64,000 nucleotides of DNA. Origin: Robiginitalea aurantiaca. GTDB lineage: Bacteria > Bacteroidota > Bacteroidia > Flavobacteriales > Flavobacteriaceae. The position numbers and the translations under genes were made by a program. The stretch is taken from assembly GCF_030380815.1 (NCBI RefSeq), contig NZ_JAUDUY010000003.1, positions 62,001 through 126,000 on the forward strand, in the 5' to 3' direction. Below, piece after piece: positions 25,946 through 41,255 of the stretch (position 1 is its first letter; each line of letters starts with the position of its first letter). The notes under the pieces are model-generated. The model saw only the letters and a program-made list of their open reading frames with translations. It ran no database searches and was not told the origin of the DNA.

Positions 25946-26719
25946 TTATTTAATGATTTGTACAGTTACCCGCCTGTTGCGTTGCTTGTTCTCAGGTGAA
26001 TCGTTTGGAACTGCCGGGTCGGATTCTCCGGCGGATTGAATCTCAATCTTGGATTCATCAACGCCTAGGGAAATCAGATGGGCCTTGTACTCTTCAGCAC
26101 GCTCTCTTCCAAGTTCCAGGTTATACGCTTCTTCTCCGTCGGAATCCGTATGGCCTACAAGCAGGATGCGGTCCCCGGTTTCTTTAAGGTATTCCGAAAC
26201 TTCCTCTGAAAAGGCATAAACAGCCGGAGTCACGATTTCCTGGTCGGAATCGTATTTGTATAAAATTGCTGTCCGGTCATAGAGTTCAATGACGTCATCG
26301 TTTCGGGTGACCCATTTGTACTGAAGTTCGTGGAGCATGTTGGCCATAGTACTTTCACAGTCATCAACCGGACGGCGACCTACCACGATGTCATCTGGAT
26401 CTAATTCTGTGAATAATGCTTTGACCTTTTCGGCCCGTGCTACACCAGCAGAGGGGTCTTCATTCCCAAAATAGGGAGCCACCAGTAAGAGTTTCTTTCC
26501 TGTAATCCTGGCATTGAGGATTTCCTTTTTCTTATCCGGCCACAGTTCATTTGTGATGACCTCGCCTGTTGAACAATCAAAGATCAGAGGGCCATACTGA
26601 ACGACGACCTCCATCTCTTCTTCCGGGCAACAAACCACCGTGTCTTTGTACCAGCCCCAGGCCAGCCACGCGAGCAGCAGAAAGAGAAGAAAAAGTAATA
26701 ATGCTAAAGCTTTTTTCAT
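25946..26719 (-). CDS. OmpA-family peptidoglycan-binding protein
   Basis: A 257 aa protein anchored by an N-terminal membrane segment (residues 3-23, a run of Ala/Leu/Trp). The C-terminal OmpA/MotB domain (about residues 165-255) has the typical ILLVGHTDSDGEEAYNLELGRERAEEYKAHL and SPENKQRNRRVTVQI stretches that hold diaminopimelate in peptidoglycan. The central part (about 50-150) is unlike anything I recognise. It likely tethers the membrane to the cell wall, together with the co-transcribed HhH protein. Confidence 0.85.
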   Translation of the reverse strand: MKKALALLLFLLFLLLAWLAWGWYKDTVVCCPEEEMEVVVQYGPLIFDCSTGEVITNELWPDKKKEILNARITGKKLLLVAPYFGNEDPSAGVARAEKVKALFTELDPDDIVVGRRPVDDCESTMANMLHELQYKWVTRNDDVIELYDRTAILYKYDSDQEIVTPAVYAFSEEVSEYLKETGDRILLVGHTDSDGEEAYNLELGRERAEEYKAHLISLGVDESKIEIQSAGESDPAVPNDSPENKQRNRRVTVQIIK

Positions 26720-26872
26720 TCCTTATGATTTTTGTTAAAAAGTTCCAAAAGATATGTTAAAAAGCCTGAATTTCAAAGAAAGCGGCAACAGTGTTTTAAA
26801 AACGTATACACGGAGCGGAAATCTTTCCGCAAAACCAGGGGTTCTCGAGGCCTCAAAAGAGAAGTTCAATAA

Positions 26873-26917
26873 TGTAACAAAAGTCACAATATACTGGTCA
26901 GACACGTGTTAATTTTG
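26873..26917 (+). promoter_or_regulatory. Crp/Fnr-type operator A and promoter of the DUF983-regulator operon
   Basis: Operator TGTAACAAAAGTCACA (26873-26888) is followed after 21 nt by TAATTTTG (26910-26917), an exact -7 box. The right half-site differs by one base from the perfect palindrome seen elsewhere in the island. The spacing puts the operator centre near -41.5, which suggests autoregulation by the Crp/Fnr protein encoded in the operon. The rest of 26720-26905 shows no gene. Confidence 0.7.
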
Positions 26918-26935
26918 TACTTTGAAAATGACATT

Positions 26936-27334
26936 ATGATAGGAAAAGGTTCTAAGCTTTACAGCATTCTTTTTATGAAATGCCCCAGATGTCATGAAGG
27001 ACGCTTTCTTCAGAACCATCCGTATAACCTCAGCAGTATGAATAAGGTAAGGGACACCTGCCCGAGCTGTGGATTGAAATACAAGTTGGAGCCGAGCTTT
27101 TACTATGGATCCATGTATGTTTCCTATGGGGTAGGTGTGGCTATCGCGGTAGCTGCGTATGTTTTGATATACCTTTTGGGACTTGACCTGGGCATTGCCG
27201 GTATTTTTGGTGTAATTGTGGGCACCTTGATACTCCTGATGCCATTTATAGGGGCAGTTTCTAAATCAATATGGGCTAATTTCTTTTTTAACTACGACGA
27301 GGAATACGCCCAAAAAGCCAGAGAAAACACATGA
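26936..27334 (+). CDS. DUF983-family zinc-ribbon membrane protein
   Basis: About 132 aa from the start MIGKGSKLYSILFMKCPRC. An upstream in-frame ATG at 26906 would place the start within the promoter. Two CxxC pairs (CPRCHEG and CPSCGLKY) form a probable zinc ribbon, followed by two membrane segments (about residues 60-80 and 85-108) and a polar tail. DUF983 proteins are small membrane proteins of unknown function. The last codons overlap the regulator's start by 4 nt (ATGA), so the two genes are translationally coupled and share promoter A. Confidence 0.85.
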   Translation: MIGKGSKLYSILFMKCPRCHEGRFLQNHPYNLSSMNKVRDTCPSCGLKYKLEPSFYYGSMYVSYGVGVAIAVAAYVLIYLLGLDLGIAGIFGVIVGTLILLMPFIGAVSKSIWANFFFNYDEEYAQKARENT

Positions 27335-27963
27335 TACAGGAGTTGAAAGCCAGTTACGGCAAACTTTTTGAAGAGGCGCTGATCAATGAAATTGCTCAGG
27401 TTGGGACTTTTAAAGAAGTGCCGGCCGGCCATAAATTGATGGAAATCGGGGAGTACATCAAAGGGATGCCCTTGCTTATTTCAGGAGTGATTAAGGTGTT
27501 GAGGGAAGACCCTGACGGGGATGAACTTCTGCTGTATTACCTGGAGCAGGGAGACACTTGTTCCATGACCATGAGTTGTTGTATCGGACAGGCTAAAAGT
27601 GAGATTCGCGCCATTGCCGAGACCGATGCCAAACTTATCATGGTCCCGGTTCGCAAGATGGAGGAATGGACGGCCAAATATCGTTCCTGGAGGAATTTTG
27701 TTTTTGAGAGTTACAACAACCGCCTCAATGAAATGTTGCTGACTATCGATACCATAGCGTTTATGAATATGGATGAGCGACTGGTGAGTTATCTCAGGGA
27801 GAAGGCCCGCGTTAACCAGGATTCCATCATCCACAATACGCATCAGGAAATCGCCTATGATTTGCACAGTTCCCGTGTGGTTATTTCGCGTTTGCTCAAG
27901 AAACTGGAGCAAATGGGAAAACTCGAAATCCATCGGAATTATCTGAAAATTCTCGATCTATAA
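27331..27963 (+). CDS. Crp/Fnr-family transcriptional regulator
   Basis: A 210 aa regulator with an N-terminal cyclic-nucleotide-binding-like beta-roll (about residues 20-120) and a C-terminal winged helix-turn-helix (THQEIAYDLHSSRVVISRLLKKLEQ, about 165-190). The sensor domain holds three close cysteines, Cys77, Cys83 and Cys84 (DTCSMTMSCC). There is no FNR-type N-terminal Fe-S cysteine cluster. It sits at the left edge of a sulfur-oxidation island whose promoters carry seven Crp/Fnr-type palindromes, so it is the obvious candidate to control them. Thiol modification by sulfane sulfur is a possible signal; that is inference. Confidence 0.88.
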   Translation: MIQELKASYGKLFEEALINEIAQVGTFKEVPAGHKLMEIGEYIKGMPLLISGVIKVLREDPDGDELLLYYLEQGDTCSMTMSCCIGQAKSEIRAIAETDAKLIMVPVRKMEEWTAKYRSWRNFVFESYNNRLNEMLLTIDTIAFMNMDERLVSYLREKARVNQDSIIHNTHQEIAYDLHSSRVVISRLLKKLEQMGKLEIHRNYLKILDL

Positions 27964-28010
27964 GGTTAGGGTTTTAACCCAAAGACCCTGCCGCCCTAAA
28001 TTAATGTGAT

Positions 28011-29744
28011 ATGCTCAAACGATATTTTCCCATACTGGAATGGTTGCCGGGTTATCAGAAGCAGTGGCTTTCCGGGGATCTTTCCGCCGGACTGACGGTA
28101 GGGATTATGCTGATTCCCCAGGGCATGGCCTACGCCATGATTGCCGGGCTGCCGCCGGTCTTTGGTCTATATGCTGCCCTGGTGCCTCAGATCATCTATG
28201 CCCTAATGGGAACCTCGCGTCAGTTGGCCGTGGGACCCGTAGCCATGGACTCCCTGCTTGTAGCCTCAGGTCTGGGAGCGCTGGCCCTTTCAGGCATTGA
28301 AGAATATATCGCCATGGCCCTTTTCCTGGCCCTTTTTATGGGTGGGATTCAATTGCTTTTCGGGCTTCTGAAGATGGGGTTCATGGTCAACTTCTTGTCA
28401 AAACCGGTGATCAGCGGTTTTACTTCAGCCGCTGCCATAATCATCGGATTGAGCCAGTTAAAACATTTGTTGGGCACATCAATAGCCGGAAGCAGTCAGA
28501 TTCATGTCCTTTTAAGCAATGCCCTTAAAACCGTTGGGGATACGAACCTGATCACCCTTGGGATCGGGATCGGGGCAATCGTGCTGATCAAAGGCTTAAA
28601 AAAGCTGAATCCAAAGATCCCCGGGGCACTTATTGCCGTCATCCTGGGGGTCATTCTGGTGTATTTTCTCGGGCTCTCATCCTCGGGTGTGCTCATCGTT
28701 GGCGATGTGCCTGACGGACTTCCCTCCCTGACTTTACCTGTGATGGATACCGGTAGAATTGCCCAACTGTTCCCAATCGCCTTAACCCTTGCCTTAATCG
28801 CCTTTATGGAAGCAATTTCAGTGGCCAAGGCCGTTGAAGAAAAAAGAGGGGAGCGTCATGTAAATGCAAATCAGGAACTGGTGGCTCTGGGGGCGTCAAA
28901 CATCATTGGATCCCTTTTTCAATCCTATCCGACCACTGGCGGGTTTTCACGTACCGCAGTCAACGATCAGGCGGGAGCACATACAGGTCTGGCTTCCCTG
29001 ATTAGCAGCGGTGTAGTTGGCTTAACCCTGCTTTTTCTGACCCCGGCATTTTACTATCTGCCCAATGCGGTTCTCGCCTCCATAATCATGGTTGCTGTAT
29101 TTGGTCTGATAGACGTTAAGTATCCGGCACGACTCTGGAAAAACAGAAAGGATGAATTTGCACTCCTTTTGGTCACCTTCGTGCTGACCCTCGGGCTGGG
29201 AATCAAAGAGGGTATTCTCCTGGGGGTTTTACTTTCCTTGCTTTTGCTGGTTTACCGGATTTCCAAACCCCATATTGCCATTTTAGGGAGGATCCGTGAC
29301 ACCAATCATTTCAGGAACCTCGACCGATTTACGACAGATGCGGAGAACCCGGAGGACTTTTTGATCCTTCGTTTTGACGGCCAACTATTTTTCGGGAACA
29401 AAGACTATTTCCGCACACAATTACAGCGGCGAATGGCGAAGAAGGGCGACGCGCTCAAATTCATTATTCTCAATGCTGAAGCCGTTAACTATATCGACAG
29501 TACCGCAGTCTTTATGCTGCGTGCTCTGGTGGCGGACTTGAAAAAGGAGAACATTCGCTTTGCCGTGGCCGGGGCCATAGGCCCTACCCGGGATATCCTT
29601 CATACTAGTGGTTTGATTAAGGATATTGGAAAAGAAAACCTGTTCGCCAATACAAACGAGGCCTATACGCATCTGAAAATGTTGAGGGATCGTTCGGAAA
29701 TTGAAGCCAGGATCGCTACACAGACGGCCAGCGGGGTAATGTAA
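28011..29744 (+). CDS. SulP-family anion (sulfate) transporter with STAS domain
   Basis: A 577 aa inner-membrane transporter. About 12 membrane segments carry the SulP signature (GLTVGIMLIPQGMAYAMIAGLPPVFGLYAA, residues 28-57). The cytosolic C-terminal STAS domain (about 440-560, NAEAVNYIDSTAVFMLRAL) contains the usual Asp-Ser-Thr loop. SulP proteins move sulfate, bicarbonate or other anions. It begins 47 nt after the regulator gene with no operator of its own at the standard position, so it probably rides on promoter A. In this setting it may move sulfate, the end product of sulfide oxidation. Confidence 0.87.
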   Translation: MLKRYFPILEWLPGYQKQWLSGDLSAGLTVGIMLIPQGMAYAMIAGLPPVFGLYAALVPQIIYALMGTSRQLAVGPVAMDSLLVASGLGALALSGIEEYIAMALFLALFMGGIQLLFGLLKMGFMVNFLSKPVISGFTSAAAIIIGLSQLKHLLGTSIAGSSQIHVLLSNALKTVGDTNLITLGIGIGAIVLIKGLKKLNPKIPGALIAVILGVILVYFLGLSSSGVLIVGDVPDGLPSLTLPVMDTGRIAQLFPIALTLALIAFMEAISVAKAVEEKRGERHVNANQELVALGASNIIGSLFQSYPTTGGFSRTAVNDQAGAHTGLASLISSGVVGLTLLFLTPAFYYLPNAVLASIIMVAVFGLIDVKYPARLWKNRKDEFALLLVTFVLTLGLGIKEGILLGVLLSLLLLVYRISKPHIAILGRIRDTNHFRNLDRFTTDAENPEDFLILRFDGQLFFGNKDYFRTQLQRRMAKKGDALKFIILNAEAVNYIDSTAVFMLRALVADLKKENIRFAVAGAIGPTRDILHTSGLIKDIGKENLFANTNEAYTHLKMLRDRSEIEARIATQTASGVM

Positions 29745-29784
29745 CTTAAGTGACTGAACGTATGGCAGTGTAGTCGTACTTTTA
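29740..29784 (+). promoter_or_regulatory. Crp/Fnr-type operator B and promoter of the first persulfide dioxygenase gene
   Basis: Operator TGTAACTTAAGTGACT (29740-29755) overlaps the SulP stop codon. After 21 nt comes TACTTTTA (29777-29784), one base off TAnnTTTG. This is the weakest operator (two mismatches in the right half), but the spacing is identical to the other six. Confidence 0.6.
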
Positions 29785-29814
29785 TTTCAAGTAAAATCAA
29801 AAAAGTAAAGAAAG

Positions 29815-31233
29815 ATGAAAGTTGAACAAATTTATACAGGATGTCTTGCTCACGCAGCCTATTACATCGAAAGCAAAGGAGAAGCAGCAGTTTTTGACCC
29901 GCTCAGGGAGGTTCAGCCTTATATCGACAGGGCCCAGATAGATAATGCGGAAATCAAATATGTTTTTGAGACGCATTTCCACGCTGACTTTGTCAGTGGA
30001 CACCTCGATCTCCAGAAGAAGACCGGAGCAGCTATTGTTTTTGGCCCGAATGCCAAACCCGGATATGATGCCACCATAGCAGAGGATGGGCAGGTGTTTA
30101 CTGTAGGGGATTACAAGGTCAAGGTAATCCATACCCCAGGGCATACGATGGAGAGTACCACATATTTGCTGATAGATGAAAATGACAAAATGCACGGGAT
30201 TATTACAGGGGACACCTTATTTATTGGAGATGTAGGGCGTCCGGACCTCGCTCAGCACGTGGTTTCCGAACTAACTGAAGAGAAGCTTGCCAGCCACCTC
30301 TTTGATTCCCTGCGAAATAAAATCATGCCCTTGCCCGACCACCTTATCGTTTATCCCAATCACGGTGCGGGTTCCGCCTGTGGTAAGATGATGAGCAAGG
30401 AAACCACAGATACCCTTGGGAATCAGAAAAAGGTCAATTACGCCTTGAGGGCCGATATGACCCGTGAGGAGTTTATCAAAGAGCTGCTCACCGGATTAAC
30501 CGCCCCTCCCGGATATTTCCCTCAGAACGTTCTGTTGAACATTCAGGGGTACGAGTCCCTGGACGAGATTATGGAAAGGGGTACCCAGCCTTTAAGCCCT
30601 GAAGCCTTTGAGGCCGCTGCAAACGAAACAGGCGCCCTGGTCCTCGATACCCGGGATGCCTCGGATTTTGCGAAAGGCTTTATTCCCAACAGCATCAATA
30701 TTGGGTTGGAAGGTAACTTTGCCCAATGGGTAGGCGAAATGATCCCGGATGTAAAACAACCACTTCTTCTGGTCACCTATCCTGAAAAAGAAGAGGAGGC
30801 CGTTACCCGTCTATCCAGGGTAGGATACGATAATACCCTTGGCTTTTTGACCGGAGGCTTTGAAACCTGGGCAAAATCAGGAAAGGATTACGAAACAGCC
30901 GGAAGGGTTGAAGTTGGTGAGGTGGTAAAGCAATTTGAAAAAGATGCACTGCCACTGATCATCGATGTTCGCAAGAAAAGTGAATACGATTCAGAACACC
31001 TGATCGATGCGATTAATGTTCCATTGAATGAAATCAATCAGCACCTTGCACAATTCCCAAAGGAAAAACCTTTTTTGATCCACTGTGCCGGAGGCTATCG
31101 GAGTATGATTGCATCCTCAATCCTGAAACAAAGGGGATGGGATAACTTCTCAGATATAATCGGAGGCTTTGACGAGCTTAAGGAGACCTCCATGCCAAAA
31201 TCGGAGTACGTATGTCCTTCTACCCTGTTGTAG
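29815..31233 (+). CDS. CstB-like persulfide dioxygenase-rhodanese fusion (copy 1)
   Basis: A 472 aa three-domain enzyme expected to oxidise low-molecular-weight persulfides. Residues 1-240 are an ETHE1-like metallo-beta-lactamase domain with THFHAD (His54, His56, Asp58), His110 in HTPGH and Asp133 in TGD for iron. Cys189 lies in HGAGSACGK, as in Staphylococcus CstB. Residues about 255-350 are a rhodanese-like domain without a catalytic cysteine. Residues about 375-470 are an active-type rhodanese with Cys424 in HCAGGYRS. This is the order found in CstB, which makes thiosulfate or sulfite from persulfide. It has its own operator/promoter and terminator. A closely similar copy follows directly. 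Confidence 0.9.
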   Translation: MKVEQIYTGCLAHAAYYIESKGEAAVFDPLREVQPYIDRAQIDNAEIKYVFETHFHADFVSGHLDLQKKTGAAIVFGPNAKPGYDATIAEDGQVFTVGDYKVKVIHTPGHTMESTTYLLIDENDKMHGIITGDTLFIGDVGRPDLAQHVVSELTEEKLASHLFDSLRNKIMPLPDHLIVYPNHGAGSACGKMMSKETTDTLGNQKKVNYALRADMTREEFIKELLTGLTAPPGYFPQNVLLNIQGYESLDEIMERGTQPLSPEAFEAAANETGALVLDTRDASDFAKGFIPNSINIGLEGNFAQWVGEMIPDVKQPLLLVTYPEKEEEAVTRLSRVGYDNTLGFLTGGFETWAKSGKDYETAGRVEVGEVVKQFEKDALPLIIDVRKKSEYDSEHLIDAINVPLNEINQHLAQFPKEKPFLIHCAGGYRSMIASSILKQRGWDNFSDIIGGFDELKETSMPKSEYVCPSTLL

Positions 31234-31256
31234 GAGTTCACCTGTAACAGTTTGAG

Positions 31257-31283
31257 GCCCGCCTGATTTCAGGCGGGCTTTTT
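31257..31283 (+). terminator. Intrinsic terminator between the two CstB-like genes
   Basis: Perfect 10 bp arms GCCCGCCTGA (31257-31266) and TCAGGCGGGC (31269-31278), a 2 nt nominal loop, then a T run. It ends the copy 1 transcript just before operator C. Confidence 0.88.
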
Positions 31284-31287
31284 CTTG

Positions 31288-31332
31288 TGTAACCCTGGTT
31301 ACTGTATGGACCGACGTTTATTCTTAAATTTG
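31288..31332 (+). promoter_or_regulatory. Crp/Fnr-type operator C and promoter of the second persulfide dioxygenase gene
   Basis: Operator TGTAACCCTGGTTACT (31288-31303, one mismatch from a perfect palindrome), 21 nt spacer, then TAAATTTG (31325-31332), an exact -7 box. It begins only 5 nt after the upstream terminator's T run. Confidence 0.78.
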
Positions 31333-31360
31333 CCTAAGTTTTAATTTGGAAAATAGTACC

Positions 31361-32773
31361 ATGATAATAGAACAGATTTATACAGGTTGCCTGGCACAGG
31401 GAGCATATTATATTGAGAGTAAGGGTGAGGCCGCCATCATTGACCCCTTGAGGGAAGTGGGCCCCTATATCAAAAGGGCACGGCAGGACCGGGCTGAAAT
31501 CAAATATATTTTTGAAACCCACTTTCACGCCGATTTTGTCAGTGGACACCTGACCCTGTCGCGAAAAACGGGTGCGCCAATCGTTTTTGGCCCCCTGGCA
31601 AACCCAAGTTTTGAAGCAATAATTGCCGAAGACGGGCAGGAGTTCAAAATTGGAGACCTGACCCTGGTGGTGCTCCATACCCCGGGACACACCATGGAGA
31701 GTACTACGTATTTGCTCCGGGATGCAGAAGGAAAGGACCACGCTATTTTTAGCGGAGACACTTTGTTTTTAGGTGATGTTGGTCGTCCCGACCTGGCCCA
31801 AAAGGCCGCCGACATGACCCAGGAACAACTTGCCTCTACGCTCTTTGACAGTCTGAGATCCAAAATCATGCCCCTGGCTGACGATATTATCGTTTACCCG
31901 GCACACGGGGCGGGATCTGCATGTGGCAAAAACATGTCCAAGGAAACCGTAGACACGCTGGGGAATCAAAAAAAGACGAACTACGCCCTTCGTCCGGACA
32001 TGACCCGGGAAGAGTTTGTGGCTGAGGTAACCGATGGCCTGTTACCTCCCCCGAATTATTTTCCCCTGAATGTAAAGATGAATAAAGAGGGGTATGAAGA
32101 CATAGATCAGGTCCTGGAACGCGGAACTAAAGCCCTTTCTCCGGATGCTTTTGAAGTTGCAGCCAACGAAACAGGGGCTGTGGTACTTGATGTTCGCAGT
32201 GAGGATGATTTTGCAAAAGGACACATACCCCGTTCCATTTTTATTGGTCTTGACGGCAGTTTTGCCCCTTGGGTAGGCGCCCTGGTTGCGGATACGGCCC
32301 AACCGATTCTGCTTGTCGTTCCCGAAGGCCGGGAAGAAGAAGCGGTCACCCGACTTTCCAGAGTGGGATTCGATAATACCCTGGGATACCTCGAGGGTGG
32401 TTTTGAGGCATGGCGGAAAGCTTCCAAAGAATACGACACGGTGAGTCCGGTAGCTCCAAAGCAATTGAAAGTGCTTATGTCTGAAGATCCGCAAACCAAG
32501 GTCTTTGACGTAAGGAAAGAAAGTGAATACCTTTCTGAACATCTTTTAGAGGCCGAAAACACGCCTCTGGACTACCTGAATGACTTTTTGAGTGGTTTCC
32601 CAAAAGAGGAGGTCTTTTATCTTCACTGTGCCGGGGGTTACCGAAGCATGATTGCCGCTTCCATTCTTAAAAGTCGTGGAATTCACAATCTGGTGGATGT
32701 TTCCGGAGGTTTTAAAGCGATAAAGGAAGCCGGTCTTCCGGTATCGGATTACGTTTGCCCAAGTACGCTGTAA
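31361..32773 (+). CDS. CstB-like persulfide dioxygenase-rhodanese fusion (copy 2)
   Basis: 470 aa from the ATG at 31361 (MIIEQIYTGC), which aligns with the start of copy 1; an ATG five codons upstream is also in frame. Same three domains as copy 1: the iron-binding MBL domain (THFHADF, HTPGHTMES, SGDTLFLGDVGRPD), the GSACGK cysteine, a central rhodanese without cysteine (LLVVPEGREEEAVTRLSRV), and a C-terminal rhodanese with Cys423 in HCAGGYRS. By eye the two copies match at well over half of positions, so they arose by tandem duplication. All active residues are kept, so both should work; differing substrates or expression levels are possible. Confidence 0.9.
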   Translation: MIIEQIYTGCLAQGAYYIESKGEAAIIDPLREVGPYIKRARQDRAEIKYIFETHFHADFVSGHLTLSRKTGAPIVFGPLANPSFEAIIAEDGQEFKIGDLTLVVLHTPGHTMESTTYLLRDAEGKDHAIFSGDTLFLGDVGRPDLAQKAADMTQEQLASTLFDSLRSKIMPLADDIIVYPAHGAGSACGKNMSKETVDTLGNQKKTNYALRPDMTREEFVAEVTDGLLPPPNYFPLNVKMNKEGYEDIDQVLERGTKALSPDAFEVAANETGAVVLDVRSEDDFAKGHIPRSIFIGLDGSFAPWVGALVADTAQPILLVVPEGREEEAVTRLSRVGFDNTLGYLEGGFEAWRKASKEYDTVSPVAPKQLKVLMSEDPQTKVFDVRKESEYLSEHLLEAENTPLDYLNDFLSGFPKEEVFYLHCAGGYRSMIAASILKSRGIHNLVDVSGGFKAIKEAGLPVSDYVCPSTL

Positions 32774-32806
32774 CCGTTAAATCTTTTTTTACAGATTTTT
32801 CAGTTA

Positions 32807-32851
32807 TGTAACCAAAGTTACTGTAGCGGGAAACCGAAATACCTAAATTAG
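32807..32851 (+). promoter_or_regulatory. Crp/Fnr-type operator D and orphan promoter
   Basis: Operator TGTAACCAAAGTTACT (32807-32822), 21 nt spacer, then TAAATTAG (32844-32851), one base off the -7 consensus. No protein gene begins within 160 nt; a strong terminator intervenes at 32951-32985. See the candidate small RNA entry. Confidence 0.72.
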
Positions 32852-32855
32852 TATT

Positions 32856-32985
32856 GTGGTTGAAAAAGCCATAAGAATAAAAGCTTAAGTCCTGATTTAT
32901 TCAGGCAGGCAGTTAAAATTTAGATGGTTGAGTTGATTGTTTTTAGTGATAAAAGCGGCCTGATGTAGCGGGCCGCTTTTTTTTT
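32856..32985 (+). ncRNA. Candidate regulator-controlled small RNA (about 130 nt)
   Basis: The interval from the start expected 4-5 nt after the orphan promoter D box to the terminator at 32951-32985 is about 130 nt and holds no convincing reading frame. The longest ATG frame (32923-32967) codes for 14 residues and ends inside the terminator loop. The predicted RNA has a 5' hairpin (CCTGA at 32891-32895 pairing with TCAGG at 32901-32905), a single-stranded AU-rich middle, and a GC-rich terminator hairpin with a U tail, the normal layout of a bacterial trans-acting small RNA. The alternative is an attenuated leader of the lipoprotein gene at 33019. Expression is inferred only. Confidence 0.45.
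32951..32985 (+). terminator. Intrinsic terminator upstream of the heme lipoprotein gene
   Basis: Arms AAAAGCGGCC (32951-32960) and GGCCGCTTTT (32971-32980) are perfect 10 bp complements with a 10 nt loop, followed by further T residues to 32985. It is the only strong terminator between the second CstB-like gene and 33019. Confidence 0.88.
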
Positions 32986-33018
32986 GACTGACCTGAAAAT
33001 TTCCGAAAATCCGAATCG

Positions 33019-33639
33019 ATGAAATATCTTTTAATTCCTGTCTTTCTGCTGGCCGTACTGCTGGGCTGCAAAGACACCCAAAACCAAAAACAAGTACTGC
33101 CTTCCCACTCTGAAGCTTCAACAGGTGAAAAGGGAAATGAATTGAACTCGGCGGACTATCAGGAAAAAGGCATGGAATACGCCATGGCGGTTCAGGGGAC
33201 ACTGGGTAAAACACTCCAATCGGAAATTCAGAAATCCGGAATAAAGGAAGCTATTGTGTTCTGCAAGGTAGAGGCATTACCCATCACGGACAGCCTTTCG
33301 AAAAAATTCGGCGCATCTATAAGCAGGATCTCAGACAAGCCCAGGAACCCTGTTAATATGGCCGGGGCCGAAGAGATGAAATTAATTTCGAATTACAGAA
33401 CTGAATTGAGTCAGGGACAGAGTCCTGAAGGCCTGGTGGTTCGTCAGGATGACCGTACGAATTTTTACTATCCCATCCTGACCAATAACCTATGTCTTAA
33501 ATGCCATGGCGCCCCCGGGGATGATATTCGTCCAGACGTCCTTACGATCCTGGAGGAATACTATCCGCAGGATCAGGCAACGGGATATTCGTCCAATCAA
33601 CTGCGGGGACTCTGGAAAGTGTCCTTCTCAGAAAATTAA
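33019..33639 (+). CDS. DUF3365/Tll0287-like heme lipoprotein
   Basis: A 206 aa lipoprotein (signal MKYLLIPVFLLAVLLGC, lipid Cys17) with a DUF3365-type sensor/heme domain. The NFYYPILTNNLCLKCHG stretch provides a CxxCH c-type heme site at about residue 161, and the early AIVFCKVEALPI contributes the second conserved region of the family. It is probably a periplasmic or outer-membrane-anchored redox or gas-sensing heme protein. It starts 33 nt after a terminator, and I see no island operator at the standard distance, so its expression may be separate or by readthrough. The racemase gene follows after 21 nt. Confidence 0.8.
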   Translation: MKYLLIPVFLLAVLLGCKDTQNQKQVLPSHSEASTGEKGNELNSADYQEKGMEYAMAVQGTLGKTLQSEIQKSGIKEAIVFCKVEALPITDSLSKKFGASISRISDKPRNPVNMAGAEEMKLISNYRTELSQGQSPEGLVVRQDDRTNFYYPILTNNLCLKCHGAPGDDIRPDVLTILEEYYPQDQATGYSSNQLRGLWKVSFSEN

Positions 33640-33660
33640 ACTTTTAAAGCACCGTAGCAC

Positions 33661-34344
33661 ATGAGAACAATTGGTTTAATCGGAGGTACTTCATGGCATT
33701 CCACTATGGCCTATTACAAGATGATCAATGAGGGTGTTGGGGCCAGGATCGGCACCCAGGGAAATCCTGAACTCATCCTTTACAGCATCAACATCGAGAT
33801 CATGCGGGAGCAGAACCGCGAAAAAATCAACGCTAAATATCTGGAGGTTTCCCGAAGACTGATCGATGCCGGGGCAGAAGCTATCCTGATTTGCGCGAAT
33901 ACACCTCATATGGTTTACGATTTTGTACAGCCCCAAATCGAGGTGCCCATCCTGCACATTGCAGATGCCACTGGGCAGGAGGCCAAAAGGCTCGGGTTGA
34001 AGAAATTAGCGCTTCTCGGCAATCGGCCTACGATGACCGGGTCCTTTATCCCAAAGGTACTGGAAGAAAAATATGGCATCCAAACCCTGATCCCCGAATC
34101 GCATTGCCTCTCCCAGGCCCACACCTATGTTTCAGAAGAACTTACGCGCGGGAAGTTTACAGATCAGGCGCGAAGCTTTTTCACTACTCAGATTGAACTC
34201 CTAAAAGCACGGGGAGCCGATGGGGTCATTCTCGGGTGTACAGAGTTGCCTTTACTGCTAGAGGCCGGAGCGTTACCGCTGCCCGGTTTAGCCACCACTG
34301 ACCTGCATGCACAAATGGCCATTGATTTTATCCTGGATTCCTGA
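33661..34344 (+). CDS. Aspartate/glutamate racemase-family protein
   Basis: A 227 aa protein of the Asp/Glu/hydantoin racemase superfamily. It has the N-terminal IGLIGGTSWHSTMAYYK signature, the first catalytic cysteine in LICANTPHM (about residue 81), and the second in ILGCTELPLLL (about residue 193). Both cysteines are present, so PLP-independent racemase activity on an acidic amino acid is expected. It lies 21 nt after the heme lipoprotein gene and converges on the desaturase-like gene. A link to sulfur metabolism is not evident; it may act on a sulfinic or cysteate-type amino acid, but that is speculation. Confidence 0.85.
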   Translation: MRTIGLIGGTSWHSTMAYYKMINEGVGARIGTQGNPELILYSINIEIMREQNREKINAKYLEVSRRLIDAGAEAILICANTPHMVYDFVQPQIEVPILHIADATGQEAKRLGLKKLALLGNRPTMTGSFIPKVLEEKYGIQTLIPESHCLSQAHTYVSEELTRGKFTDQARSFFTTQIELLKARGADGVILGCTELPLLLEAGALPLPGLATTDLHAQMAIDFILDS

Positions 34345-34356
34345 TCAGGAAGCAGC

Positions 34357-35241
34357 CTATCCGTTGCCCTTTTTAGGTTTTGTGAATCCGTAGAGATTCT
34401 GGTGTACAAAATCCTTTGGGAAATCTGCATCTCCAGGGAACCCCAGTTCAATGGTTCCACTGTCCTCCGGAACGTAATTCGTTTTGAAAATATAATCCCA
34501 GAGACTCAGGCTTATACCAAAGTTCACACCGAATGAGCCCTCCGGAAGGACGTATGCATGATGGTAGAGATGCATTACCGGGTTGTTGAAAACGTATTTC
34601 AACGGACCCCAGGTGAGTTTGATATTCGCATGGTTAAGATGTCCAATGGAAATGGCGATAAAGTGCACAATATAGGCCTGTTCCGGTTCAAAACCTCCAA
34701 GGATCATCACCCCGAAAACCTTTAGCGGTTTGTAGAGTACATTCTCCATCCAGTGATATCTCAGATGGGCCGCAAACCCCATTTCCTTAACGCTGTGATG
34801 CACCTTGTGGAAATTCCATAGCACCCGGTATTTGTGCAGCAGGATATGGGTGAACCACTGTACAAAATCCAGTACAATAAAGAATACCAGGAGTTGCAGC
34901 CACATAGGCCAGGCACTCATATCCACTATAGCCAGGCTCTTCGCGGTGATGCCAATATCTGAAAAAAGCACTTCCAGCATCTTGTATACCCCGCTGATGA
35001 CGATGGCGAAAATGAAGAAATTAAAGAACATATAAAAGGCATCCAGCCAGAAGTCCTTCCGGAAAATGGACTGGTCCTTCCTCCAGGGGAATGCGATTTC
35101 AAGCATCCATACGATCAGGGAAATGGCTATAAGTCCCCAGAAGTAATTCGTATACCAGGGGACCTCGAATAAGATAGACTTCCAGGTCCATTGCAGTGTC
35201 CCCATAAAGGCGTTTCCAAATGCGTCAAAATATTTTTCCAT
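34357..35241 (-). CDS. Fatty acid hydroxylase/sterol desaturase-family membrane protein
   Basis: About 294 aa from ATG 35241 (MEKYFDAFGNAFMG). A longer frame from 35304 would overlap the rhodanese gene by 61 nt and is unlikely. Several membrane segments and the di-iron histidine motifs HILLH, HKVHH and HLYHHAY (with HLNHAN) mark the fatty acid hydroxylase superfamily (sterol desaturase, alkylglycerol monooxygenase and relatives). It is the last gene of the sulfite dehydrogenase operon, 2 nt after the rhodanese gene. Its role there is unexplained: it may hydroxylate a membrane lipid, perhaps a sulfonolipid or capnine-type precursor, but that is only a guess. Confidence 0.82.
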   Translation of the reverse strand: MEKYFDAFGNAFMGTLQWTWKSILFEVPWYTNYFWGLIAISLIVWMLEIAFPWRKDQSIFRKDFWLDAFYMFFNFFIFAIVISGVYKMLEVLFSDIGITAKSLAIVDMSAWPMWLQLLVFFIVLDFVQWFTHILLHKYRVLWNFHKVHHSVKEMGFAAHLRYHWMENVLYKPLKVFGVMILGGFEPEQAYIVHFIAISIGHLNHANIKLTWGPLKYVFNNPVMHLYHHAYVLPEGSFGVNFGISLSLWDYIFKTNYVPEDSGTIELGFPGDADFPKDFVHQNLYGFTKPKKGNG

Positions 35242-35243
35242 AG

Positions 35244-36203
35244 CTACTGTAAAATTAATGTGGTACTGTCTTTTTCTATCGGGGCTCCTTCCGAAGCACT
35301 CCATTCCAACCAGGATCCATCATAGTTGTAGACCCGGGTATATCCTAATAGTTGCGTTAAAACAAAAAAAGTATGAGCCGAACGAACACCCGAATGGCAA
35401 TATACCACGACAGGGGTGTCCTTGTCTTCCGGCAGGCCTTTGTAAACCTTAGTTAATTCTTCCAGGGTACGGAATTTCTTGGTTCCGTGAAAGTCCACAG
35501 CGTGCGCCCAGTCGATGTTGATGCTTCCGGGAATACGCCCTGCGGTTTTAGCCCCTTTTTTTATTCGCTTTCCTGAGTGTTCATCGGTAGTCCGGGCATC
35601 TATCAGGGTTCCGTGTTCCGCTACAAGAAGGGAATGCAAACTGTCCTTTTCAATTTTCAGGTGAGGCGCGTCCCTCAGGGGAAACCTGAATGATCCTTCA
35701 GGACGGGGTTCATAGGCAATGCTGACCTCCCCTTTTTCATTCTGCCAACTCTGTAATCCCCCGTTGAGCAACCGCACCTGGTTAAAGCCATAGGTTCTTA
35801 GAACCCACCACAGGCGTGCTGCATTCACATTGCCCTGATCGTCGTAGAGAATCAGGCTGTCTTTTGAAGAGATGCCGTGGGAGGACAGTAATTTTTCAAT
35901 TTCAGATTTTGTGGCCATCATGCCCCGCACATGGTGCGTATGATCCTCAATATCACTGCGCCAAAGGGGGATTGCACCTTCGAGATGACCCTGATCGAAG
36001 GCCTCCCGTTCTCTGAAATCAATGATCCGGATGTCTTCATTATTCTGAATCGCCAAAAGTTCGTCCACCTCGATCAACGATTCCGGATGCGCATAATTAA
36101 GGGTTTTTACCCCGGCTTTTTCGGAATCCAGAGGCGTGACTTCCCTCCCCCGGCAGGCGGAGAGCATAATGAGCAGGATCAAAAGCTTATTCTTCCAGCG
36201 CAT
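35244..36203 (-). CDS. Exported double-rhodanese sulfurtransferase (lipoprotein)
   Basis: About 319 aa from ATG 36203 (MRWKNKLLILLIMLSACRG), which gives a lipoprotein signal. A longer frame to 36290 would lose this and overlap the cytochrome gene more. Two rhodanese domains follow: an N-terminal one with no clear catalytic cysteine (residues about 45-155, IRIIDFREREAFDQGHLEGAIPL) and a C-terminal one (about 175-300) with Cys269 in VVYCHSGVRSAH. This two-domain layout matches thiosulfate or 3-mercaptopyruvate sulfurtransferases. It overlaps the cytochrome gene by 17 nt. It likely moves sulfane sulfur in the periplasm next to the sulfite dehydrogenase. Confidence 0.88.
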   Translation of the reverse strand: MRWKNKLLILLIMLSACRGREVTPLDSEKAGVKTLNYAHPESLIEVDELLAIQNNEDIRIIDFREREAFDQGHLEGAIPLWRSDIEDHTHHVRGMMATKSEIEKLLSSHGISSKDSLILYDDQGNVNAARLWWVLRTYGFNQVRLLNGGLQSWQNEKGEVSIAYEPRPEGSFRFPLRDAPHLKIEKDSLHSLLVAEHGTLIDARTTDEHSGKRIKKGAKTAGRIPGSINIDWAHAVDFHGTKKFRTLEELTKVYKGLPEDKDTPVVVYCHSGVRSAHTFFVLTQLLGYTRVYNYDGSWLEWSASEGAPIEKDSTTLILQ

Positions 36204-36669
36204 ACCATTGAATATTCTCGAGGTTCTGACGGCGTCCTTTTTCACCAGGCGCGTAATAGGTAGCCAGATAGGCCACGATGATGTCTTCATTCTTACCCAG
36301 ATCCCAAAGGTTCTGGGTTTCCTGCATCCATTTGATTGTGGAGCGCCATCCTTCGGCGTTCATCCGGTTTTGGGTGACCAGTTTCGCAGAATGGCAATTT
36401 GTACAGTTATTCACTACCGTCATAAGGCCTTCACCTTCAACAAATCCGGTTCGCAGGTGAATCCCGTTCTCAATTTTGTCGAAATCATCTTCTTCGGGAG
36501 GCGTAACCACGACGAGTGCTTCCGGTTCAGGGGAAAATGCGGAGAGGGTGGGGTCGATCATCAGGTATACCAGGAATCCCCCCACGACCATGAACATCGC
36601 GAAGATAATCCCCATCATCCTCGATATCGCACGTGCGCTTTGTTCAAATTTACTTGCCGGATTTTCCAT
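36187..36669 (-). CDS. Membrane-anchored c-type cytochrome (SorB-like electron acceptor)
   Basis: About 160 aa from ATG 36669 (MENPASKFEQ). One N-terminal membrane segment (about residues 18-37) is followed by a periplasmic domain with one heme-binding CxxCH (Cys89, Cys92, His93 in NNCTNCHSAK) and a likely distal methionine in the WMQET region. The start overlaps the stop of the sulfite dehydrogenase gene by 1 nt (TGATG). This pairing mirrors SorAB, where a cytochrome takes electrons from the molybdenum subunit, so a role as electron acceptor for sulfite oxidation is very likely. Confidence 0.87.
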   Translation of the reverse strand: MENPASKFEQSARAISRMMGIIFAMFMVVGGFLVYLMIDPTLSAFSPEPEALVVVTPPEEDDFDKIENGIHLRTGFVEGEGLMTVVNNCTNCHSAKLVTQNRMNAEGWRSTIKWMQETQNLWDLGKNEDIIVAYLATYYAPGEKGRRQNLENIQWYALEE

Positions 36670-37889
36670 CAGCTGATTTTTACGGCAATTCGGTGGCAGG
36701 CATTGTTGAGGTATCCTTTCGGATTCCATCCGGGCAGGACCATCGGCTGGGCATTGCCCTTGCTGTCAATTGCCCGGGCCCAAACCTCGTAATATCCTTT
36801 TTTCGGGAATTCTGCTACCCCTGAAAAATGTTGCCACGCCAAACGGTTGGCAGGCGCTTCAAGGGTACAGTCCTTCCAGGTACTTCCAAAATCTATGGAG
36901 TATTGCATTTTTGTGACTTCGAGTTCCCCTGCCCAGGCATGTCCCCTGAAAGACAGTGATTTCCCGAGGGGAAGTGTCGCTCCGGTCTTCGGATAGGTAA
37001 TAAGCGATTTTACAGGCATGGACTCGATGATGCAGAGGTCTTCATCCGCTACTTTTGTGCCGGGAGCCACGGGATTGCAAGGGACCCGGTAGGAATCCCC
37101 GGTCATTTTGGGCCCGTCATGTACCTGGTTGCGCACACTGATGCCCGTGAGCCATTTGCCCGAGGTTGACGCAGGCCAGCCACCGGCAACAAGCCGAAGC
37201 GGATGTCCGTGGGCCAGTGGGATGTCTGCTCCGTTCATTTGAAAAGCGAGGAGGGTCTCATCCTGCATCGCTTTGGCCATCGGGAAACCCCTGGAGATGG
37301 GTTCTTTCTTTGGGTCTCCGCTAAGGTGGGTGTCTGCAGCGTGAAACCCGATATAAACCGCATCCGATTTGACGCCTACATCTTCCAGGACATCCCTAAG
37401 GCGCACTCCTGTCCATTCGGCACTATGAACGGCTCCAACGCTCCATTGATTTCCTTTGGCAGGCGGGTTGAATTCGCTTCTTCCATTGCCTCCGCACTCA
37501 ATGGTCAATTGATAGGTATGTACAGAAAAACGGGATTTAAGCTCAGAAAGGCTGTAGCTTTTGTTGCCCTGAACGGATTCACCGTCAAAGCTAAGCGTCC
37601 AGGTGCCGGGGTCAATTTCCTGTGGAATGATCCCATTGTTACGAATAAACATATACCTGTTCGGAGTGATCGGATCGTCCAGCAAATGGGCCAGAGATTC
37701 AATATTCCATGGTTTGTCATTGAGGACTTTCATCTCCTGATCCTTATCGAACATCTTGAAGGGATCCGGATCCTGAAGGCCCAATGGGATATATCCTTTT
37801 GGCAGCACACCGCCAAAAACAATTTCGGTACCGAGTAACGCAGCCATGGCGCTTAGACCGGAATTCTGAACAAATTTTCTTCGGTTCAT
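36669..37889 (-). CDS. Molybdopterin sulfite dehydrogenase (SorA-like, Tat-exported)
   Basis: A 406 aa periplasmic enzyme predicted to oxidise sulfite to sulfate. The N-terminus MNRRKFVQNSGLSAMAALLG is a twin-arginine signal. The Moco domain (about residues 80-285) has the conserved molybdenum-ligand Cys132 in TIECGGNGRS and the HGHPLRLVAGGWPASTSGKWL region of the sulfite oxidase family. The C-terminal Mo-co dimerisation domain covers about 295-405. No heme domain is fused; electrons would pass to the cytochrome encoded next. It is the first gene of a four-gene operon and is preceded by the perfect palindromic operator E. Confidence 0.92.
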   Translation of the reverse strand: MNRRKFVQNSGLSAMAALLGTEIVFGGVLPKGYIPLGLQDPDPFKMFDKDQEMKVLNDKPWNIESLAHLLDDPITPNRYMFIRNNGIIPQEIDPGTWTLSFDGESVQGNKSYSLSELKSRFSVHTYQLTIECGGNGRSEFNPPAKGNQWSVGAVHSAEWTGVRLRDVLEDVGVKSDAVYIGFHAADTHLSGDPKKEPISRGFPMAKAMQDETLLAFQMNGADIPLAHGHPLRLVAGGWPASTSGKWLTGISVRNQVHDGPKMTGDSYRVPCNPVAPGTKVADEDLCIIESMPVKSLITYPKTGATLPLGKSLSFRGHAWAGELEVTKMQYSIDFGSTWKDCTLEAPANRLAWQHFSGVAEFPKKGYYEVWARAIDSKGNAQPMVLPGWNPKGYLNNACHRIAVKIS

Positions 37890-37914
37890 GTGAATGCGAA
37901 TTGAGAATAATTCA

Positions 37915-37959
37915 TAAACTTAAGGGATTTTGGCAGAATGATCTGTAACCTTGGTTACA
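37915..37959 (-). promoter_or_regulatory. Crp/Fnr-type operator E and promoter of the sulfite dehydrogenase operon
   Basis: A perfect palindrome reading TGTAACCTTGGTTACA on the plus strand (37944-37959). On the minus strand, 21 nt further down, is TAAGTTTA (37922-37915), one base off TAnnTTTG. It drives the minus-strand operon starting at 37889. Operator F faces the other way 117 bp to the right. Confidence 0.78.
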
Positions 37960-38060
37960 ATGCCGGGGGGTCGGCTTTATTTTTTGCTTTAAATCCCAAA
38001 TGGCCGGATTCCAGCCCAAAAGCGCCGGCAGCCACAAATACGCAGTTTTATTCCACTTAG

Positions 38061-38105
38061 TGTAACCTTTGTTACAATGAAAAGGAGTAGAAATATTTAC
38101 CTTTA
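38061..38105 (+). promoter_or_regulatory. Crp/Fnr-type operator F and promoter of the sulfide:quinone reductase gene
   Basis: A perfect palindrome TGTAACCTTTGTTACA (38061-38076), 21 nt spacer, then TACCTTTA (38098-38105), one base off TAnnTTTG. The gene starts at 38132. No -33 TTG is needed in this layout if the regulator recruits polymerase. Confidence 0.8.
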
Positions 38106-38131
38106 AAGTTCTTTAAACAACCTGTACTACT

Positions 38132-39379
38132 ATGGAATCACATTTCGAAATTCTTGTAATCGGCGGAGGAACAGGGGGCATTATGACTGCCGCCAAATTG
38201 TTGCAGGAGGACAAATCCCTTAAAGTCGGAATCATTGAACCGGCAGAAACTCATTATTACCAGCCAGCCTGGACCCTTGTAGGTGCCGGAACTTTTGATT
38301 ACAAAAAGACCGCCCGCCCGATGCGCTCTGTCATACCCAAAAGAGCTACCTGGATTCAGGATAGTGCAACGGGATTTAAGCCCGAGGCCAATACAGTAAT
38401 GACTAAATCCAGTGGTGACCTGACCTACGATTACCTCGTTGTTGCCCCGGGATTGGTTTATGACTGGAGCCTTGTTCCCGGCCTTGGCGATGCCATGGAC
38501 AAGGACGTGGTTTGCAGTAATTACACAGACCCGGAACACACCTGGGAAGTGCTTAAAAACTTCAAAGGGGGGACTGCGCTTTTTACCCAGCCGGCCACTC
38601 CTATAAAATGCGGGGGAGCTCCTCAGAAAATCATGTACCTTGCTGAAAGCTACTACAGGAAAGCCGGGGTCCGGGATAAAACCGATGTGGTTTTTGCGAC
38701 TCCCGGAACTACGATTTTCGGGGTTCCGGAGGTTAAGAAAACACTTCTGGAAATCGTTGATCGCAAGGATATCAACCTCAGATTTGGCTATAAACTGGTA
38801 AAGGTAGACGGCCCGAACCGGATAGCCTGGTATTCTTTTATGGACCATGAGCGGGAATACAACCACAAGGATATCCGGATCGAAAAAGACGGGGACCTGA
38901 CCGGCATCCACTTTGATATGATGCATACAGCCCCTCCTTCCACAGCCCCGAAATTCATTCAGGATTCACCTCTGGCCAATGAAGGAAAATGGTTGAACAT
39001 CGATAAACACACCATGCAGAGCCCTGACTACCCCAACGTTTTTGGGCTTGGGGATGTTGCCGGGATCCCGGCGGCCAAAACGGGCGCTGCGATCCGCAAA
39101 CAGGTTCCGGTTATCGTTGAGAATATCCAGCTCCTAAAGTCCAGGAATATCCTGGGTACGACTACCTATAATGGGTATTCCTCATGTCCTATCGTTACGG
39201 ATTATGGGAAAATGGTGCTTGCGGAATTTGATTACGACAACAATTTTACTCCGGATCCCAAGCTGAAACTGATGGGAATAACGGACTCGTACCGGGAGCA
39301 CTGGAGGTTGTGGATGCTGAAGAAGTACGGCCTTCCCTATCTCTATTGGAACAAAATGCTCAAGGGTCAGGATGTGTAA
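38132..39379 (+). CDS. sqr: Sulfide:quinone oxidoreductase, type II (SQOR-like)
   Basis: A 415 aa FAD enzyme that would oxidise sulfide at the membrane, pass electrons to quinone and place sulfane sulfur on a thiol acceptor. The N-terminal FAD motif is EILVIGGGTGGIMTAAKL (residues 6-23). Two redox cysteines expected for SQR are seen, Cys160 in PIKCGGAPQK and Cys352 in YSSCPIV. The FAD-binding GLGDVAGIP follows the second Rossmann fold. The sequence resembles mitochondrial/type II SQOR rather than FCSD. It follows a perfect operator, and its own stop overlaps operator G for the next unit. Confidence 0.9.
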   Translation: MESHFEILVIGGGTGGIMTAAKLLQEDKSLKVGIIEPAETHYYQPAWTLVGAGTFDYKKTARPMRSVIPKRATWIQDSATGFKPEANTVMTKSSGDLTYDYLVVAPGLVYDWSLVPGLGDAMDKDVVCSNYTDPEHTWEVLKNFKGGTALFTQPATPIKCGGAPQKIMYLAESYYRKAGVRDKTDVVFATPGTTIFGVPEVKKTLLEIVDRKDINLRFGYKLVKVDGPNRIAWYSFMDHEREYNHKDIRIEKDGDLTGIHFDMMHTAPPSTAPKFIQDSPLANEGKWLNIDKHTMQSPDYPNVFGLGDVAGIPAAKTGAAIRKQVPVIVENIQLLKSRNILGTTTYNGYSSCPIVTDYGKMVLAEFDYDNNFTPDPKLKLMGITDSYREHWRLWMLKKYGLPYLYWNKMLKGQDV

Positions 39380-39419
39380 CCTGGGTTACCCGGATATCCA
39401 AATGAAAGCATTTGCTTTG
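39375..39419 (+). promoter_or_regulatory. Crp/Fnr-type operator G and promoter of the YeeE/YedE pair
   Basis: Operator TGTAACCTGGGTTACC (39375-39390, one mismatch) overlaps the SQR stop codon. After 21 nt comes TTGCTTTG (39412-39419), one base off TAnnTTTG. It is the second case, with operator B, where the operator is built into the 3' end of the preceding gene. Confidence 0.7.
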
Positions 39420-39450
39420 CAAATCGATTTAGCTTTTTAAAAATACAGAT

Positions 39451-40011
39451 ATGAATTTGATTATGGAACCCTGGCCCTGGTATGTTTCCGGGGCGGCAAT
39501 TGCGCTGGTTATGCTTTTGCTTTTGCTGGTTGGAAAGAATTTTGGGATGTCATCCAACCTTAGGACTTTTTGTACGCTTTGCGGAGCGGGGAAGAGCTCG
39601 GAGTTTTTCCAGTTCGACTGGAAGTCCCAGAAATGGAACCTGATTGTGGTTTTAGGAGCCATCATCGGGGGGTACATTGGTGCGAATCACCTGAGTACCG
39701 ATGTGGCGGTAGACATCAATCCGAAAACCGTTGCTGAATTGCAGACACTGGGCTTTAACAGCGCAGGCAAAGAGTACCTCCCGGATGAACTTTTCGATTC
39801 CGGTATCTGGACAAACCCGAAAACAATATTGCTGCTCGCCCTGGGCGGGTTTATGGTCGGTTTTGGAGCCAGATACGCCGGCGGATGTACCTCCGGCCAC
39901 GCCATTTCGGGCCTGAGCAATCTGCAATGGCCATCGCTGCTTGCGGTAATCGGATTTTTTGCCGGAGGAATGGTCATGATTTATTTCTTATACCCCTTAA
40001 TTTTTGGATGA
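39451..40011 (+). CDS. YeeE/YedE-family membrane protein, first half
   Basis: A 186 aa membrane protein with about four segments and the family signature GCTSGHAISGL (about residues 147-157), plus a preceding GFMVGFGARYAGG. YeeE/YedE (TsuA-related, DUF395) proteins take up thiosulfate or other sulfur compounds through conserved cysteines. An FCTLCG pair near residue 38 is an additional cysteine cluster. The first ATG lies at 39451, with Met5 an alternative. The stop overlaps the start of the second half-protein (ATGATG). Uptake of thiosulfate or sulfane sulfur into the pathway is the likely job. Confidence 0.85.
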   Translation: MNLIMEPWPWYVSGAAIALVMLLLLLVGKNFGMSSNLRTFCTLCGAGKSSEFFQFDWKSQKWNLIVVLGAIIGGYIGANHLSTDVAVDINPKTVAELQTLGFNSAGKEYLPDELFDSGIWTNPKTILLLALGGFMVGFGARYAGGCTSGHAISGLSNLQWPSLLAVIGFFAGGMVMIYFLYPLIFG

Positions 40012-40424
40012 TGCGAAGTCTGAGTTATCTACTTATTGGAATCTTTTTTGGTATTACAATGTTTAAATCTGAAGCCGCGAGCTGGTTTCGGATCTACGAG
40101 ATGTTCAAGTTCGATGCTTTCCACATGTATGGTATTATCGGGACTGCAGTTGTGCTTGGAGTGATCATTGTACAGATTATAAAACGCTTTGGTGTCAAGT
40201 CCTTTTACGGGGAGCCCATTGAATTTGAACCCAAGGAAAAAAGCGTTCCGCGCTATATAATTGGTGGGTTTATATTTGGTTTGGGTTGGGCCCTGGCAGG
40301 TGCCTGCCCAGGACCGATGTTCACCCTTGTCGGGGCCGGGTACATGCCTATTCTGATCGTTATCGCAGGGGCGGTAGCCGGGACGTGGTTGTACGGGGTA
40401 GTGCGGGATAAACTCCCCCATTAA
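40008..40424 (+). CDS. YeeE/YedE-family membrane protein, second half
   Basis: About 138 aa from ATG 40008 (or 40011, MRSLSYLLIGIFFG). It has about four membrane segments and the second family signature GLGWALAGACPGPMFTLVGAG (about residues 92-112), with the conserved cysteine of CPGP. In many bacteria the two halves form a single YeeE/YedE protein; here they are separate genes overlapping by 4 nt, as often seen in Bacteroidota. They probably form one transporter with the upstream half. Confidence 0.87.
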   Translation: MMRSLSYLLIGIFFGITMFKSEAASWFRIYEMFKFDAFHMYGIIGTAVVLGVIIVQIIKRFGVKSFYGEPIEFEPKEKSVPRYIIGGFIFGLGWALAGACPGPMFTLVGAGYMPILIVIAGAVAGTWLYGVVRDKLPH

Positions 40425-40427
40425 CCT

Positions 40428-41186
40428 TTACTGAACCATAATCAGTATGGCCCCCAGGGCAGTGAGAAAAAGGATTATCCTGCGGTAGGAAGTGTCCCGA
40501 ATAAGCCGGACCAGTCGTACCCCGGCAAAAAGACCGACCAGAACTCCGGGCAACAGCCAAAGGTCTGTCCGGAGTACTTCTGCGTCAATGGTCTTCCACA
40601 CAAAAATATGCAGGGGCAGTTTAAACCAGTTGGTCAGTAAGAAAAGCCAGGCCGCGGTTCCGATAAATTCATTTTTGGGAAGGCGCATTGCCAGAAAGTA
40701 AAGGTTGGAAAAAGGCCCGGCCAGATTCCCGATCATTGTGGTAACCCCGGCTGCCAAACCCATAAACCCCGCAAAGGCAGGGTGCTGTGGGACGCGTTTG
40801 GATTTTCGGATATCCCACCATCCCATCAAAAGCACACTCCCCAGGATGATGACTGCCATTGCCCATTTGAAGACTTGCTCCGGCAGGTCTTTGCCAACCC
40901 ACGCCCCGAGCACAATCCCGAGCACCATCCAGGGGATGAATCGCTTTAAATGATCCCATCGGGCATGTCTGTTGTAGTACAGGACAGCGAATAGATCCCC
41001 AAACATCAGCAGGGGTAAAATCTGGCCAGTTGACTGGCGCGCCCCAAATGCCAGGGCCATCAGGGTTACTGCAAAGATTCCGGTTCCTTTCAATCCTGAC
41101 TTGGCAAGACCCAGGACCAGGGCGCCGGCCAGGGCAATTAAATATGGGGTTGTACCCTGATCAGGTTGAAAGAGAAAGTAAAGCAT
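40428..41186 (-). CDS. TauE/SafE-family sulfite/anion exporter
   Basis: A 252 aa membrane protein with about eight segments and the TauE/SafE pattern (ALVLGLAKSGLKGTGIFAVTLMALAFG near residue 20, and VTTMIGNLAGPFSNLYFLAM near residue 150). Family members export sulfite, sulfoacetate or related anions, and TauE accompanies CstA/CstB/SQR in the Staphylococcus cst operon. It is convergent with the YeeE/YedE pair (3 nt gap). I found no island-type operator upstream of it, so it may be expressed constitutively or otherwise regulated. Confidence 0.87.
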   Translation of the reverse strand: MLYFLFQPDQGTTPYLIALAGALVLGLAKSGLKGTGIFAVTLMALAFGARQSTGQILPLLMFGDLFAVLYYNRHARWDHLKRFIPWMVLGIVLGAWVGKDLPEQVFKWAMAVIILGSVLLMGWWDIRKSKRVPQHPAFAGFMGLAAGVTTMIGNLAGPFSNLYFLAMRLPKNEFIGTAAWLFLLTNWFKLPLHIFVWKTIDAEVLRTDLWLLPGVLVGLFAGVRLVRLIRDTSYRRIILFLTALGAILIMVQ

Positions 41187-41255
41187 TGGGAAACGGGTCA
41201 GAGCCTAAAGGTATTTTAAAATATAATATCTTTAGCCGGTAACCGCTACCAAACT

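Follow-up and report, generated by a model that had tools for sequence, protein, structure and literature searches.

A predicted short RNA under a Crp/Fnr-type sulfur regulon in Robiginitalea

Within a 64,000-nt stretch of the Robiginitalea aurantiaca genome, hereafter the window, we found that one promoter of a sulfide oxidation gene cluster is followed by a terminated interval that likely encodes a new RNA of about 130 nt, controlled by a Crp/Fnr-type sulfur regulon and restricted to the genus. By sequence, the interval has the attributes of an sRNA: a promoter of its own, a 3' end at an intrinsic terminator, and no conserved coding frame. On the other hand, the gene behind the terminator appears to be reachable only by read-through, and these two findings point to different roles. 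The RNA may serve as a leader subject to regulated early termination, as an sRNA that terminates incompletely, or in both ways. Considering the locus as a whole, its best explanation is an activated, Hfq-independent base-pairing sRNA with a leaky terminator that feeds a lipoprotein gene, an account in which we place somewhat more belief than doubt. Trans action, which is plausible, is the leading proposed mechanism, and cis attenuation is its main rival. The features concerned are as follows.

27331 to 27963, plus strand: gene of the Crp/Fnr-family regulator, presumed activator of operator D.
31346 to 32773, plus strand: MBL-rhodanese gene, upstream of operator D.
32808 to 32821, plus strand: operator D, GTAACCAAAGTTAC, an inverted repeat GTAAC-N4-GTTAC kept in seven genomes.
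32844 to 32851, plus strand: -7 box, TAAATTAG, with five of the six defined bases of TAnnTTTG, 29 bp from the centre of operator D.
32856 to 32985, plus strand: predicted non-coding RNA of about 130 nt, its start inferred from the position of the box.
32856 to 32872, plus strand: small 5' hairpin GUGGUU/AGCCAU, weakly evidenced.
32926 to 32948, plus strand: invariant 23-nt element, GGTTGAGTTGATTGTTTTTAGTG, largely single-stranded and identical in all seven genomes.
32951 to 32985, plus strand: intrinsic terminator, stem AAAGCGGCC/GGCCGCTTT and T run; stem nearly invariant, loop variable.
33019 to 33639, plus strand: Tll0287-like (PF11845) lipoprotein gene with a CLKCH haem motif, downstream of the terminator.

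Judged by the similarity of its gene products, the cluster around operator D consists of sulfide oxidation genes. It includes the Crp/Fnr regulator, a SulP transporter, two MBL-rhodanese fusions, a SorA/SorB-like sulfite dehydrogenase, a type III sulfide:quinone-reductase-like protein, and thiosulfate-transporter-like proteins, all of these names denoting similarity only, with NCBIfam scores below the equivalog cut-offs. The regulator at 27331 is presumed to activate operator D, given its linkage and the presence of an operator ahead of the operon to which it belongs. That operator (26874-26887), which precedes the DUF983 and Crp/Fnr genes, carries one mismatch (GTAAC-N4-GTCAC), and a GTCAC half-site recurs in 9 of 10 genomes; it is perhaps an autoregulatory site that has been kept weak. 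Another operator (29741-29754) shares bases with the stop codon of SulP, whose gene ends at 29744.

Seven operators of the form GTAACNNNNGTTAC were located in the cluster, two of them with one mismatch. Every one is accompanied by a box with at least five of the six defined bases of TAnnTTTG, exactly 29 bp from the operator centre, so the first-pass annotation, which had described operator D and its box at 32844-32851 as built like the other six, was right in this respect. The operator pattern alone, with two mismatches allowed, was not above chance in the window (17 observed, 15 expected). The composite GTAACNNNNGTTAC-N22-TANNTTNG, with at most one mismatch, occurred 74 times in the 10 Robiginitalea genomes, against 3 times for the reversed pattern. 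The box consensus and its placement at -12 to -5 are those described previously (PMC9723704). Based on this placement and the spacing of 29 bp, the centre of operator D lies at about -41.5 from an inferred RNA start at 32856, which is the position of a class II activator. Among 13 regulon promoters examined outside the D position, 11 have a start codon 16-45 nt past the box; operator D is thus exceptional. Outside the cluster, the operator-box motif was also seen before a thioredoxin-like gene (G000:C11:310283), where it recurs in genomes G001, G004, and G009, and before a peroxiredoxin-like gene (G000:C22:151083), and the sulfur regulon seems to reach thiol redox genes.

The interval behind the box ends as the first-pass annotation had stated, with a terminator hairpin and T run at 32951-32985, although the stem was counted as 12 pairs (32951-32980, 7 of them G-C). 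This is the joint-largest stem of the 27 terminator-like matches in 26700-43300. The annotation's interval of about 130 nt with a 5' hairpin was likewise found, the hairpin being the small one at 32856-32872; a hairpin can also form here in the other genomes, with one two-sided pair change in genome G008. None of 200 dinucleotide shuffles folds as well as the predicted RNA (32856-32985; z -3.8), an advantage due chiefly to the terminator hairpin. No Rfam 15 family matched in the window and all scores in the interval were below the gathering cut-off, which speaks against a known RNA family.

The distribution of the locus was then considered. Operator D, the box, the RNA, and the terminator are found in synteny in 7 of 10 Robiginitalea genomes, and the order was the same in all seven: MBL-rhodanese gene, operator D, box at 29 bp, variable stretch, element, terminator, and Tll0287-like gene. 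BLAST with the interval matched the six other genomes of the genus in the 3' part only, and an exact 21-mer of the element matched Robiginitalea sediminis, R. aestuariiviva, R. marina, and a Robiginitalea MAG. The 397 family genomes yielded only four sporadic matches outside the genus, with three mismatches. The RNA is present in a single copy in its own genome and the element was not found in viral contigs, which speaks against a multi-copy or mobile element. The three Robiginitalea genomes without the RNA keep the regulon and an MBL-rhodanese gene, and they are also without the Tll0287-like gene. All seven carriers of the RNA thus have this gene too, and the other three genomes have neither. 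In the tree of the first MBL-rhodanese protein, which takes in two of the three RNA-less genomes, one gain or loss is enough to account for this distribution; RNA and gene are thus linked by a single event, which is weak evidence of a functional tie.

Conservation within the RNA was very uneven. The 5' part cannot be aligned between the two clades, and the distance from operator to element falls from about 118 nt to 76 nt in one genome; the 3' module, composed of the 23-nt element and the terminator stem, is nearly frozen, with a constant spacing between the two. The 23-mer is the sole string of at least 12 nt common to all seven genomes across the locus, and once G001, whose contig spans only part of the locus, is omitted, it is followed by a shared string of 17 nt. 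Its conservation makes the element the presumed functional core of the RNA. Few proteins of the cluster change as fast as the adjoining Tll0287-like lipoprotein (33019-33639; 40-65% identity between relatives), yet its gene lies next to this frozen element. A second terminator, that of the first MBL-rhodanese gene (31254-31281), is located just ahead of operator C, only a few bases away. In nearly every one of the seven genomes its stem is different, both arms changing together. Since this stem varies freely whereas the D stem is frozen, the constraint at D acts on the sequence of the hairpin and not on mere termination.

This comparison bears on the simplest reading of the locus, in which the hairpin is an ordinary 3' terminator of the MBL-rhodanese mRNA, operator D serves a poorly expressed lipoprotein gene, and any short RNA arises as a by-product or by processing of a 3' end. 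The stretch from the MBL-rhodanese stop codon to the gene at 33019 contains no second terminator, and with none ahead of operator D, the MBL-rhodanese gene probably shares the one at 32951. Nevertheless, such a reading leaves unexplained why 23 nt and a stem are kept identical in seven genomes while the neighbouring terminator changes freely, and why promoter and terminator follow each other in a fixed order in all seven. We consider it quite improbable.

A coding explanation of the conserved module was also weighed. The interval had been described as having no plausible reading frame; in fact it holds a frame of 14 codons (MVELIVFS...) with its ATG at 32924 and its stop inside the terminator loop, but the pattern of conservation speaks against a gene. 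If the frame were translated as a leader peptide, a ribosome meeting the terminator stem would set the read-through, and the ATG in 6 of 7 genomes and the stop within the loop in 4 of 7 are in line with this. However, in genome G008 the ATG is replaced by AAG, the stop lies far beyond the loop in the three remaining genomes, and the seven degenerate codons show no synonymous change across the seven genomes, while in the neighbouring regulator and MBL-rhodanese genes only about 8% of the codons for invariant residues are themselves invariant. Codon invariance, the missing ATG, and the unconserved stops led us to reject the peptide-coding reading, and a leader peptide is very improbable indeed.

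The main rival concerns the gene downstream. The first-pass annotation had operator D followed by no gene, which is correct up to the terminator; beyond it, the gene at 33019 starts 33 nt past the T run (17-56 nt past the terminator across this gene and its orthologues) and has no recognisable promoter of its own. No consistent -7 box was found in the gap between terminator and ATG of this gene and its orthologues, and an independent promoter was dropped as a candidate because none was consistent across them. With so short a gap and no recognisable promoter, the gene probably depends on read-through. Accordingly, a terminator stands between a promoter and a gene without a recognisable promoter, as in a cis attenuator: the RNA would be the leader of the haem lipoprotein gene, and the element would sense a protein or signal that gates read-through. 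The apparent need for read-through, the unchanging spacing between element and stem, and the co-occurrence of RNA and gene are all compatible with this. Against it, no conserved antiterminator fold was found. Apart from the terminator, the consensus fold of the interval shows only a weak hairpin of A-U and G-U pairs within the element, with hardly any covariation, although protein-mediated attenuation would need no antiterminator structure. In addition, 28 homologous genes elsewhere in the family have neither operator nor terminator upstream in a crude scan, and one event on the tree suffices for the co-occurrence. Cis attenuation as the whole explanation is thus possible but rather unlikely.

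Turning to base pairing in trans, we found no convincing target in any of the searches. A whole-genome search for the 18-nt anti-seed of the element, with at most three mismatches, returned no recurring gene, and the regulon's own leaders showed no consistent pairing with the element. Leaders were also compared between 580 kb of the window's contig and the syntenic stretches of two relatives (325 three-genome and 251 two-genome ortholog leaders, about one-sixth of the leaders of the genome). The best of the 325 three-genome leaders had a mean duplex energy of -21.2 kcal/mol, which was equalled or beaten by 2 of 40 shuffled seeds. This best candidate, which belongs to a DUF1761-like small membrane protein, was rejected as a target, its leader being equally conserved in the three RNA-less genomes, with somewhat weaker energies. 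The leader, CACTATTAACCAATTAAC, lies just before the start codon and shows strong conservation in nine Robiginitalea genomes, RNA carriers and RNA-less ones alike. Hence the earlier search proposal for conserved pairing targets yielded none from anti-seed, regulon leaders, or three-genome leaders, and the suggested repression of sulfur-assimilation or iron-sulfur genes found no support. Of the layout claimed for a trans-acting sRNA, the activated promoter and the terminated, apparently non-coding RNA were borne out by sequence, in seven genomes; a convincing trans target was not found. No Hfq was detected in the genus.

The predicted RNA combines traits of several known systems. In the FnrS-type sRNAs of enterobacteria, an activator of the Crp/Fnr family drives a short terminated RNA, as is predicted here; FnrS needs Hfq, which was not found in Robiginitalea, and here the RNA is followed by a gene without a recognisable promoter of its own. 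DapZ and MicL are 3'-region sRNAs with their own promoters that share the terminator of the upstream mRNA. The present RNA resembles them in a promoter just behind or inside an mRNA 3' end and in a shared terminator, but its downstream gene seems reliant on read-through of that terminator. SreA of Listeria is a terminator-attenuated leader that also acts in trans, and the Robiginitalea RNA could likewise be a prematurely ended leader released as an sRNA; in contrast, neither a riboswitch fold nor an antiterminator was found in it. FopS of Bacteroides thetaiotaomicron is an Hfq-independent Bacteroidota sRNA with a single-stranded seed and a terminator (PMC11697453). Like FopS and GibS (PMC11697453), the RNA would be a short Bacteroidota RNA with a conserved single-stranded stretch and an intrinsic terminator that works without Hfq. 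However, its sequence is different (24 bits with the GibS model, against a gathering score of 115), its conserved stretch adjoins the terminator instead of lying at the 5' end, it occurs in a single copy, and it is connected with a Crp/Fnr sulfur regulon rather than with polysaccharide use. In Flavobacterium psychrophilum, Rfp18 and further independent sRNAs, found by transcriptomics, have TAnnTTTG promoters and are conserved in their genus (PMC9723704). Our RNA, predicted from sequence, is comparable by description as a Flavobacteriaceae RNA with such a promoter and conservation within the genus, whereas Rfp18 has been linked to proteases (PMC9723704).

Based on these results, we propose the following model. 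The Crp/Fnr-family activator of sulfide oxidation would bind operator D at about -41.5, and transcription would start near 32856, from a promoter in the 3' region of the MBL-rhodanese gene, whose terminator is probably shared. RNA polymerase would make an RNA of about 130 nt and mostly stop at the hairpin at 32951-32985. The conserved 3' module, a mostly single-stranded 23-nt element and a fixed hairpin, would be the functional part. The RNA would most likely be a base-pairing sRNA working without Hfq and made whenever sulfur oxidation is on. Leaky termination would supply the haem lipoprotein gene, and the RNA may double as its leader. A stronger form, in which an Hfq-independent sRNA of the sulfur regulon has dual function, its frozen element and hairpin engaging a trans partner and setting read-through in cis, seems unlikely. 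A limited literature search found no sRNA of a sulfur-oxidation regulon in Bacteroidota. An element and hairpin that stay nearly identical while the flanking DNA and the adjacent protein diverge provide a handle on post-transcriptional regulation in Hfq-free bacteria, and they raise a testable question, namely, whether the RNA acts on other messages or gates read-through into the neighbouring haem protein gene.
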